In this document: one piece after another, positions 11,197 to 13,517 of the stretch
How positions within the stretch are numbered: position 1 is the first letter of the stretch
Layout: every line of letters begins with the position of its first letter
Virus record (IMG/VR): IMGVR_UViG_3300032304_000199
Location: 1-20,510 of that record
Length of the DNA: 20,510 nucleotides
Strand: one strand, 5' to 3'
Source of the DNA: a virus
Made by a program: the position numbers and the translations under genes
The notes under the pieces: model-generated
Database searches by the model: none
What the model saw: only the letters and a program-made list of their open reading frames with translations
What the model was told of the DNA's origin: nothing

Positions 11197-11661
11197 TTAT
11201 GCCACCAGACCGTTCAAGTAGGTAGTCTTACCGGCCACCTTGGTGGCGGTCAACTCTTGTTTCTTCAGGTTGTTCGGGTCATAGCTGACATGAACCCATC
11301 CGCTGTCGGGGATTCCGGAAGTGTAAAACTCCAGAATCAATTGCGTGTACTCAAGGTTGTCCATGATCCACTGTGCGAGGTCAGCGTTGGCAACGCCAGG
11401 TATCTCAATGTCTGCCGCCATGCCCTTGCAATGGTCCGAGGTCTTAGAGCCGCCAACCGCCGCATTTGACTCTGGTGAACGGTAAGCAGAGTTCACCTTC
11501 ACGCCCTTGCCGTAATGATCACGCACCGGCTGCAACACCTTCTCGCACAGCAGACGCAGATTCTCGGTGGCCTCATCATTTGGCGTATTGTCGATGTCCA
11601 AGCGTATAGCAGTCTCAGACTTGGTTAGTTCATTCAAGGTGAAGTTCTTGGATAAATTCAT
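11197..11661 (-). CDS. M15-family endopeptidase (endolysin)
   Basis: The ATG at 11661 overlaps the TGA of Rz. At 154 residues it is a bare catalytic domain of the M15 (VanY/M15_3-like) zinc peptidase type. The zinc motif S75-x-H77-x-x-G80-x-A82-x-D84 is complete (SDHCKGMAADIE), the third ligand is H124 (GWVHVSYD), and E111 (LILEFY) is a candidate catalytic base. R61 in NSAYRSPESN matches the conserved substrate-binding arginine. It cleaves peptide bonds in peptidoglycan stem peptides. No signal or SAR sequence is visible, so release to the periplasm would depend on a holin. Placement directly after Rz/Rz1 and the membrane genes makes it the lysis enzyme. Confidence 0.92.
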   Translation of the reverse strand: MNLSKNFTLNELTKSETAIRLDIDNTPNDEATENLRLLCEKVLQPVRDHYGKGVKVNSAYRSPESNAAVGGSKTSDHCKGMAADIEIPGVANADLAQWIMDNLEYTQLILEFYTSGIPDSGWVHVSYDPNNLKKQELTATKVAGKTTYLNGLVA

Positions 11662-12137
11662 TTCATGTTCCTCAAGGTTTCGTAGGTTTCGATGCAGGCG
11701 TTGAGCTTTCTGATGGCGGCATCTCCATCGGCTGCGATCTGGAGAAGATCGGCAGCGACATCAACCGATCCACTAGATTCGGCTCTTGCTTCTCCGCTGT
11801 CACTTCCGCTGGCAGTGGTGGAGGTTTCGGACATTGGAACGGTGCAGTTGGGCGCTTTGGTAGGAAGCCGCAGCTTGAGAGCACCAGAGTTGAGATCAGC
11901 ACGCAACTGATTTTCTTTAGCCTTTGCAACATTGTTCGCCTTTCGTAATGTTTCACCATAAGTCTGCGCCACCTTTGCCATTGTCTGCTCAGTCTCACGC
12001 GCCTTGGCGTTTAACTCGGCAATCTCAACTTGCTGACGCTGAGACTCATCATTCTCGCCCTTGTAGTATCCACTGCCAAAGGCTGACAGCATCGCCAAGA
12101 CAAAGCCGAGGATCACCCAAGGGTTGAAAATAGTCAT
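11658..12137 (-). CDS. Rz: Rz-like inner-membrane spanin
   Basis: The ATG at 12137 overlaps the previous TGA. At 159 residues it has a lone N-terminal membrane anchor (residues about 6-24, WVILGFVLAMLSAFGSGYY). A charged coiled coil follows (QQVEIAELNAKARETEQTMA, about 35-85), with a Ser/Gly linker (TTASGSDSGEARAESSGS). The C-terminal helix AADLLQIAADGDAAIRKLNA resembles the end of lambda Rz-family proteins. An Rz1-like lipoprotein frame lies entirely inside this gene. Together they should span the periplasm and fuse the inner and outer membranes at the last lysis step. Confidence 0.85.
   Translation of the reverse strand: MTIFNPWVILGFVLAMLSAFGSGYYKGENDESQRQQVEIAELNAKARETEQTMAKVAQTYGETLRKANNVAKAKENQLRADLNSGALKLRLPTKAPNCTVPMSETSTTASGSDSGEARAESSGSVDVAADLLQIAADGDAAIRKLNACIETYETLRNMK
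11672..11932 (-). CDS. Rz1: Rz1-like outer-membrane spanin lipoprotein, embedded in Rz
   Basis: A frame of 86 residues contained in the +1 frame of Rz, as in lambda. The ATG at 11932 has AAAGGCG about five bases upstream; the frame is open further upstream but only this ATG puts the signal first. Signal peptide: basic start MLQRLKK, hydrophobic core CVLISTLVLS, lipobox L18-S19-S20-C21. The mature protein is proline-rich (PKPPPLPAE, MPPSESSTPASKP), the hallmark of Rz1. C21 should be lipidated and anchored in the outer membrane, where the protein binds the Rz C-terminus. Firm assignment. Confidence 0.9.
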   Translation of the reverse strand: MLQRLKKISCVLISTLVLSSCGFLPKRPTAPFQCPKPPPLPAEVTAEKQEPNLVDRLMSLPIFSRSQPMEMPPSESSTPASKPTKP

Positions 12138-12463
12138 GACTCAGCTTTGCCCCTGACATACGCTTGTGCCGCCATAAAAGCCACCACAATCGTACCCATG
12201 GCGGCGCAGTAGGTGGTTGCCAGACCGTTCAATGCGCTGACCTTTTCCAGAGTCACAAACTCGGAGGCCATGAAAGCAATGATGAAAGGAGGAGCCGCCA
12301 AAGCAGCCCACGCCATGATGCGTTGCTGATCGGCCATCTTGTCCATGTTTTCGATGGTGATCATGCGCTCTGATCGGGACAATTCAGCGTCAGTAACAAC
12401 ACCGTCACCGTCTGTATCGAATTGGTTGTATGTTGAATTCTTTTCAAGTTGCTTAGTCATCAT
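12134..12463 (-). CDS. EF-hand plus two-span membrane protein, holin candidate
   Basis: I choose the ATG at 12463 (AAGGA about five bases before; a second ATG follows at 12460). The frame upstream begins at a TTG inside the previous gene. Residues 16-27 form a full canonical calcium loop, D-T-D-G-D-G-V-V-T-D-A-E, with D at 1, 3, 5, G at 6 and E at 12. Two hydrophobic spans follow at about 49-70 and 79-103, joined by a short acidic loop, then the tail RGKAES. Two spans and 109 residues between other membrane genes and Rz/endolysin fit a holin. A calcium-dependent function is suggested only by the loop. The stop overlaps Rz. Confidence 0.75.
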   Translation of the reverse strand: MMTKQLEKNSTYNQFDTDGDGVVTDAELSRSERMITIENMDKMADQQRIMAWAALAAPPFIIAFMASEFVTLEKVSALNGLATTYCAAMGTIVVAFMAAQAYVRGKAES

Positions 12464-12746
12464 TCTTTCCTTTTCTTTGTTGCTGCTCAATCTCGCGTCT
12501 TAACTTTTCCACTTTTTCAATCTGTGCATTGGCCTCATTCTTCGTTTCCAGCACATCCAAATACAGTATGCCCATCAAAGGCAACAGTAGTGCAATCAGT
12601 ACGCAAGCAGCGATCCATCCGATCATCTCTTCCCCCAATGACTTACGAACCACAGCCACAGCCACAGGTACAGGAGGAATATAGAAGTCGCTACCACTGC
12701 CGCGAGCTTTGCTTGTAGGTTTCTTTCCTCTTCCTTGTGTTGCCAT
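12453..12746 (-). CDS. 97-aa membrane protein overlapping the upstream gene
   Basis: The ATG at 12746 lies inside the 3' end of the preceding gene (124-base overlap in another frame), with AGAGG about eight bases before it. Basic N-terminus (MATQGRGKKPTSKARG), a Pro/Val segment (YIPPVPVAVAVV), one hydrophobic span (about 42-63, IGWIAACVLIALLLPLMGIL) and a charged coiled-coil C-terminus (NAQIEKVEKLRREIEQQQ). The order resembles an anchored spanin-like or lysis-control protein but no family is certain. It sits in the lysis cassette between a C-terminally anchored protein and the EF-hand protein. Its TAA overlaps the next start region. Confidence 0.7.
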   Translation of the reverse strand: MATQGRGKKPTSKARGSGSDFYIPPVPVAVAVVRKSLGEEMIGWIAACVLIALLLPLMGILYLDVLETKNEANAQIEKVEKLRREIEQQQRKGKNDD

Positions 12747-13321
12747 GCTACTTGCCTCTTCTTCGCCTCCTCCTTGAGTCTAGCTTTTTCCTGTTCCTCT
12801 GATATGACTTCGCGCATCTTGAAGACCTCGGAGTACAGTGCGCCCATCTCTGGCGGTGACTGATACACCATAGTCTCTCGGATTGTCACAACCAGCCTGT
12901 CCATCTCTTGCTGCGCCATTACGCGCTTAAGGGCTGACTCCATCAGGTTTTGATCAGGGTCATAGACAGTTTGGCTTTTCTCTTCTTCCTCCCTGATGTG
13001 CGCGGCCAGTTGTTCTTGTAACTTAAAAAACTCGGTCAGGTTTCTGACAATATCAATCTTGACCTGTGTCTCGTCAACCGCGACATAGGCTTGCCTCTTT
13101 TTTGCCAGAGGCTTTGCTTTGGTGGCTGGCTTTGGTTTTGCGCCAAAGAACGAAAGCAACTGATTCCAAAAGCCGTGAACCTCTTTGCCAATGGCGATGA
13201 CTTCATCAGCCGTGTTCTTGATCTCAACAAAGGATTCTTTGGCCTGCTTGTACAGCTCGCATCCGGCTTGGATGTTTTTGACCAATCCAGCCGCAAGTAG
13301 ACAGATGCTGATCGGATCAAT
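12623..13321 (-). CDS. 232-aa protein with C-terminal membrane anchor; likely ATT start
   Basis: The frame opens after a stop at 13331 and has no ATG or GTG in its first part. From ATT at 13321 it reads MDPISICLLAAGLVKNIQAG if ATT initiates; I recall similar MDPIS starts in related phage proteins. This start is one base after the upstream TGA, as expected in this tightly packed operon. The conservative alternative is TTG at 13285 (220 aa), which lacks a good ribosome site. Middle: Pro/Lys linker (KPKPATKAKPLAKK) and long charged helices. A single hydrophobic anchor lies at about 207-229 (ATSIFLLYLWLWLWFVSHW). Function unknown; position and topology suggest a lysis-region membrane protein. Confidence 0.65.
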   Translation of the reverse strand: MDPISICLLAAGLVKNIQAGCELYKQAKESFVEIKNTADEVIAIGKEVHGFWNQLLSFFGAKPKPATKAKPLAKKRQAYVAVDETQVKIDIVRNLTEFFKLQEQLAAHIREEEEKSQTVYDPDQNLMESALKRVMAQQEMDRLVVTIRETMVYQSPPEMGALYSEVFKMREVISEEQEKARLKEEAKKRQVAWQHKEEERNLQAKLAAVVATSIFLLYLWLWLWFVSHWGKR

Positions 13322-13322
13322 T

Positions 13323-13517
13323 TCACCCGCCCATCAATTTGTTGACCATCGTGCCAACAAAGCCTGGGCCGAGCAACACCGCACCAATCACAATGTAGAG
13401 CAGATACTCAATGCGAGTCATGCGCTTGTCGCCTTCGACAAATGCCTTCTCTATCGCGGCATATCTCTCAGCACAAACGGCTTCATGCACAGCAAATTCC
13501 TTTTCTACTTCGTTCAT
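13323..13517 (-). CDS. 64-aa XhlA-like coiled-coil/membrane protein
   Basis: The ATG at 13517 overlaps the collar-protein stop (ATGA); a longer in-frame reading begins with TTG inside that gene. Residues 1-37 form a charged helix ([20 protein letters not shown] and on to KRMTRIEY), residues about 38-58 one hydrophobic span ([20 protein letters not shown]), and the tail is NKLMGG. Short coiled coil followed by a C-terminal span is the layout of XhlA-like holin/haemolysin partners, common near phage lysis genes. It opens the membrane/lysis block after the fibre genes. Family inferred from topology only. Confidence 0.65.

Follow-up and report, generated by a model that had tools for sequence, protein, structure and literature searches.

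Whether the small membrane protein whose gene directly precedes those for a spanin and an endolysin at this locus takes part in host lysis, and whether a calcium-binding loop near its N-terminus could help to time it, is the question considered here. The DNA analysed, called the window throughout, is a virus record of 20,510 bases, in which the gene for this protein (the EF-loop gene) and those for the spanins and the endolysin are read from the minus strand. SU10-like capsid and adaptor genes are also present (Pfam, PHROGs). A sequence-only reading had located the protein at 12134-12463, and these coordinates are right for a gene on the minus strand.

Organization of the lysis cassette

Two adjacent ATG codons, at 12463 and 12460, open the EF-loop frame. 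ATG 12460 appears the likelier start, because its spacing from an AGGA motif and the N-termini of related proteins fit better. In the 5' to 3' direction of the minus strand, the genes of the cassette encode, in turn, a protein of about 64 residues, a 220-aa protein, a 97-aa protein, the EF-loop protein, an Rz spanin, inside whose gene lies an Rz1-like frame, and an M15 endolysin (Table 1). The spanin and endolysin genes expected directly after the EF-loop gene were thus found there. The Rz1-like frame lies wholly inside Rz in a lambda-like arrangement, and similar nested, proline-rich frames with a lipobox occur in 28 of the 43 distinct relatives with enough sequence.

Table 1. Features of the cassette, with window positions and the evidence for each.
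Feature	Positions	Strand	Evidence or remark
EF-loop two-span membrane protein, candidate holin or holin partner	12134..12460	-	108 aa from ATG 12460; 109 aa from ATG 12463
12-residue calcium loop DTDGDGVVTDAE	12383..12418	-	PS00018 match; ligand positions invariant in 279/279; profile matches to EF-hand structures
Charged helix between loop and span 1	12323..12382	-	Within long helix 24-64 of AlphaFold2 model (108-aa numbering)
Membrane span 1 of EF-loop protein	12263..12322	-	Hydropathy; starts near the near-invariant Q..M.W.A motif (conservation)
Membrane span 2 of EF-loop protein, then basic C-terminal tail	12167..12226	-	Hydropathy; charge pattern
Rz-type inner-membrane spanin	11658..12137	-	Pfam Phage_lysis, E 4e-6; PHROG Rz-like spanin, E 2e-16
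Rz1-like outer-membrane lipoprotein ORF nested in Rz	11672..11932	-	Lipobox LSSC; proline-rich
M15 peptidase endolysin	11197..11661	-	Pfam Peptidase_M15_3, E 6e-20; PHROG endolysin, E 2e-44
97-aa one-span protein, function not assigned	12453..12746	-	Conserved in 35/38 distinct window-lineage cassettes
220-aa protein with C-terminal span	12623..13285	-	Relatives also precede EF-loop gene in DC31 and many CRP-9-type loci
~64-aa one-span protein, XhlA-like layout, rival holin candidate	13323..13517	-	Span 37-61 of frame read

Span prediction finds three membrane proteins in the cassette besides the EF-loop protein. The 97-aa gene and the 3' end of the 220-aa gene share 124 bases (12623-12746, minus strand), which are read in different frames, and both genes recur across the window lineage. 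The counterpart of the 220-aa protein in Limnohabitans phage DC31 matches phrog_32327 (E 1e-10). A direct family match was sought for the ~64-aa protein and none was found; its DC31 counterpart gives a weak match to a PHROG hemolysin family (E 0.003).

Span prediction found neither a signal peptide nor a SAR span in the window endolysin. According to the lambda paradigm, an endolysin without an export signal needs a large-hole holin, and such a holin is therefore expected in this cassette. The EF-loop protein, with 108 residues and two spans, has the dimensions of a holin (holins are small and have one to four spans). No known holin family scored above the cut-off for it in Pfam, PHROGs or NCBIfam, and two of its relatives reach Phage_holin_3_6 at E 0.02-0.05.

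The calcium loop and its conservation

Numbered from ATG 12463, the loop reads D16 T D18 G D20 G V V T D A E27. It is the sole match to PROSITE PS00018 among the 116 ORFs of 50 aa or more in the six frames of the window, the expectation from shuffling being 0.01 per window, and P = 2e-4 given the composition of the protein itself. Searches with the single sequence gave EF-hand_5 at E 0.0015, under the Pfam gathering score, and an EF-hand match at only E 0.002 among PDB sequences (phmmer). The family profile retrieves EF-hand structures from the PDB sequences, calmodulin included, at E ~5e-9 to 1e-7, a statistically significant similarity in which all rows shown are EF-hand proteins; an earlier family alignment had given such matches at E 3e-8. 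Chance origin of the motif is rejected by the shuffling statistics and this profile match. The EF-loop pattern (D at position 1, D, N or S at positions 3 and 5, then G at 6, a hydrophobic residue at 8 and E or D at 12) is present throughout, and the complete 12-residue calcium loop from D16 to E27 that had been proposed stands as described.

Free variation of the loop residues among relatives would have spoken against the proposal, and the ligand positions proved invariant. All 279 distinct complete sequences have D at position 1, G at 6 and E at 12, together with D or N at 3 and at 5 and I, L or V at 8; positions 2, 7, 10 and 11 vary. The pattern is likewise kept in 50/50 sequences below 80% identity, and identity between the lineages is about 22-40%. 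Five sequences appeared to lack the loop, and all of them are truncated by the ends of their contigs.

The queries of four scans lacked the loop, and a further search used patterns from the membrane region only. The idea that the loop is seen merely through loop-based queries is rejected, since the membrane-region searches return loop-bearing proteins only; this outcome refers to the best 80 hits per scan, and rare distant loop-less relatives could escape. Some members, as a comparison of L328 and L332 with others shows, have an insertion of ~7 residues in the helix between the loop and span 1 (e.g., RLQDMKSDMENEDKK), as if helical register were kept.

Structure, topology and calcium binding

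By hydropathy, the two spans lie at about residues 48-67 and 80-99. They had been thought to follow the loop immediately; about 20 residues of charged helix intervene. Two AlphaFold2 models (mean pLDDT 69 and 72) place a short entering helix at residues 10-13 or 10-14, then the loop, together with the small pair of strands that EF hands usually have. A single long helix (24 to 64-68) takes in span 1, and another helix occupies 71-107. In these models, which are of moderate confidence, the loop would cap a continuous helix running into the membrane. When the first model (pLDDT 69) was compared with PDB folds, no match was significant, and the comparison was uninformative.

Fourteen residues precede the loop in the window type, as against ~3-6 in the CRP-9, CRP-345 and CRP-810 types, in which the loop begins at about residue 4-7. 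The full helix-loop-helix is thus not found across the family, the entering helix being short in the models and absent in three lineages. Of the canonical EF hand that had been claimed, the loop is borne out and the complete hand is not, only the exiting helix being general; the motif is better called an EF loop, or half EF hand, because the CRP-9, CRP-345 and CRP-810 types have no entering helix. The protein shares all canonical ligand positions with calmodulin-type EF hands (profile E ~5e-9) and differs from them in having a single loop joined to a span, an entering helix that is short or absent, and no second EF hand in the chain.

The lineages tabulated have a basic C-terminal tail and an acidic loop between the spans, and this charge pattern suggests an N-in/C-in orientation with both ends cytoplasmic. 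From its sequence, the loop is strongly predicted to bind calcium. It might nevertheless bind none in life, or hold only a static structural ion, for example when facing the periplasm, so that calcium would have no regulatory part. Single EF loops are often weak binders, the topology is predicted from charge only, and some of the loops have N at ligand positions 3 and 5. N at these positions is normal in calcium loops, and ligand conservation without exception across ~22-40% identity fits retained metal binding, so that a non-regulatory loop is rated unlikely.

Distribution of the family

Searches of viral contigs returned 356, 231 and 345 relatives for three lineages, and at least 595 and at least 592 for two more. 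Among cultured phages, the gene is carried by Limnohabitans phage DC31, Roseobacter phages CRP-1, CRP-9, CRP-207, CRP-345 and CRP-810, Pelagibacter phage HTVC008M and the Melnitz methylophages; with the family profile, seven cultured genomes each show a single copy (E 3e-29 to 7e-50). In the phage records examined, its product is labelled a hypothetical protein. The CRP-9 member matches phrog_27150 (E 5e-11) and the window protein matches it weakly; this PHROG has no assigned function and differs from the EF-loop members by ~55 extra N-terminal profile positions. In the open-access literature, to which the search extended, neither an EF-hand or calcium-binding holin nor a description of the family was found, and the family appears to be uncharacterised so far. 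The taxonomy line of the DC31 record (PQ492658.1) reads Pakpunavirus, a genus of Pseudomonas myoviruses, and this label is possibly an error.

In the genome collection there were eight matches; each lies on a MAG or binned contig (9-87 kb) and has the loop (8/8). The contigs (L325-L332) sit in MAGs labelled Maricaulis, Euryarchaeota, Muricauda, Rickettsiales and others, and are probably phage contigs binned into those genomes. Capture of a bacterial gene by phages is not supported, these eight being the only matches in that collection, and the family accordingly appears to be phage-specific.

Gene neighbourhoods and the identity of the holin

The EF-loop gene recurs beside lysis genes in four lineages. 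In the window lineage, a spanin or endolysin gene is nearby in 38/38 distinct loci with enough sequence, and DC31 has the same gene order as the window. The CRP-9/CRP-1 lineage has such genes nearby in 37 of 40 loci; CRP-9 and CRP-1 themselves possess a bare cassette, in which the EF-loop gene is accompanied only by those for an M15 endolysin and a u-spanin-like lipoprotein. CRP-345 has the EF-loop gene, a spanin2-type protein and an M15 endolysin, and by the references used 23 of the 41 loci of its lineage have a spanin or endolysin nearby. In six other loci of this lineage that were inspected, a membrane protein adjoins the EF-loop gene (the two tested match phrog_2524), and in several of them a lysozyme-type endolysin then follows (the one tested matches phrog_181). 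In CRP-810, the EF-loop gene is followed by a GTA_holin_3TM protein and a GH108 endolysin. The endolysins beside the gene are therefore of four kinds (M15_3, M15_4, GH108 and phrog_181). Because the gene recurs with all of these, and because of the size and spans of its product, a role in lysis is the best reading of the sequence data.

Which protein makes the hole is a separate matter. The EF-loop protein could be a regulator or antiholin that restrains or triggers another holin by calcium, the partner being the GTA_holin_3TM protein (PF11351), the phrog_2524 protein, the XhlA-like protein or the 97-aa protein. A separate holin-like gene lies directly downstream in CRP-810 and in several CRP-345-type loci, and the window cassette has its three further membrane proteins. 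GTA_holin_3TM occurs in the same cassettes as a gene of its own, and the EF-loop protein does not match its model. In the bare cassettes of CRP-9 and CRP-1 such a partner is harder to find: in CRP-1, no annotated protein other than the EF-loop protein is predicted to have two spans, and the candidate there would be gp58, a 153-aa protein with a C-terminal span encoded two genes upstream. We consider a purely regulatory role unlikely, though of some weight. Some freshwater relatives (L108, L101) have an 82-aa two-span protein (MKMDQTLRGKLTYKV...) encoded directly downstream of the EF-loop gene, a further holin candidate.

Other loci lie away from lysis genes. In the T4-like HTVC008M and Melnitz, the EF-loop gene stands between baseplate-hub assembly and putative tape measure genes, directly before the latter; in CRP-207-type relatives, none of the adjoining genes is recognised as an endolysin or spanin, and some of their contigs also place it before a tape measure gene. 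In CRP-207, the product of gp73 (L157:3292-3873) is annotated as a putative lysozyme; domain searches found no lysozyme domain, and the protein reads as an N-terminal hydrophobic stretch followed by a coiled coil, like an inner-membrane spanin. The shared tape-measure order would suit an inner-membrane protein of the virion or of the infection stage, such as a calcium-stabilised tape measure partner in DNA entry, for which the lysis neighbourhood would be secondary. Three lineages with no tape measure gene nearby keep the EF-loop gene beside endolysin and spanin genes, and holin genes of T4-like phages need not adjoin the endolysin gene, as is established for t and e of T4. A function in DNA entry is thus rated improbable.

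As for the holin-like protein of the sequence-only reading, the neighbourhoods of four lineages sustain a lysis role, while the other membrane genes and the tape-measure loci make it no more than a candidate for the holin itself. Against that identity are the separate holin gene of CRP-810, the T4-like loci beside the tape measure, and the CRP-207 type with no lysis neighbours. The EF-loop protein is likely the hole-former in the bare CRP-9 and CRP-1 cassettes, and a candidate where a second holin-like gene follows. Overall, there is about an even chance that it is a lysis-cassette membrane protein of tailed phages, with two spans, both ends cytoplasmic and a genuine Ca2+-binding EF loop, acting as the holin or as a co-acting half of a holin pair, in which calcium bound by the loop feeds back on opening.

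Comparison with known systems

Class II holins such as phage 21 S have two spans and an N-in/C-in topology. The EF-loop protein is also small, with two spans and a basic C-terminal tail, and is encoded before endolysin and spanin; it differs in its long N-terminal helix with a calcium loop, and no sequence similarity was found. We know of no described holin with a calcium loop. Calcium has a precedent in lysis in the phage T5 endolysin EndoT5, which is calcium-activated through a regulatory calcium loop (PMC10487532). The EF-loop protein, with its predicted calcium loop and probable lysis role, resembles it to that extent; EndoT5 differs in being a soluble peptidase and not a membrane protein, and no kinship between the two loops is known. 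For Melnitz, no holin was named and a curli pore protein was proposed as a pinholin (PMC9004378). Its EF-loop protein, Melnitz_108, is an alternative holin candidate for this and similar T4-like phages.

A possible calcium step in lysis

Computation shows a loop conserved without exception, two membrane spans and, in four of the lineages, a place among lysis genes. A steep calcium gradient exists across bacterial inner membranes, free calcium being sub-micromolar in the cytoplasm and millimolar outside. The invariant loop, its predicted cytoplasmic location and this gradient together suggest that calcium may help to control when or how infected bacteria burst. The EF-loop protein would collect in the inner membrane with its loop empty, because free cytoplasmic calcium is so low. 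The first leak would admit millimolar calcium from outside, which the loop would bind; the calcium-bound loop would then order the helices, and neighbouring subunits would lock together. Opening would thereby become all-or-none, the signal-less endolysin would be released and the spanins would act. While holin activity, topology and calcium binding are also inferred, the feedback step is the most speculative part of this scheme.

It may be asked whether the scheme applies more widely, that is, whether holins of widespread freshwater and marine phages are calcium-gated, with a cytoplasmic EF loop that senses the first leak and makes lysis abrupt, and whether this protein also serves as holin in T4-like pelagiphages and methylophages; this combined proposal is doubtful at present.

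Judged from the contigs searched, the EF-loop gene is common in aquatic phages and usually stands first, before the lysis genes. To our knowledge, described holins are timed by their own concentration, by antiholins and by membrane energy. If the EF-loop protein does act as a holin or as the partner of one, its invariant calcium loop would represent a new control of lysis, in phages of very abundant aquatic bacteria.
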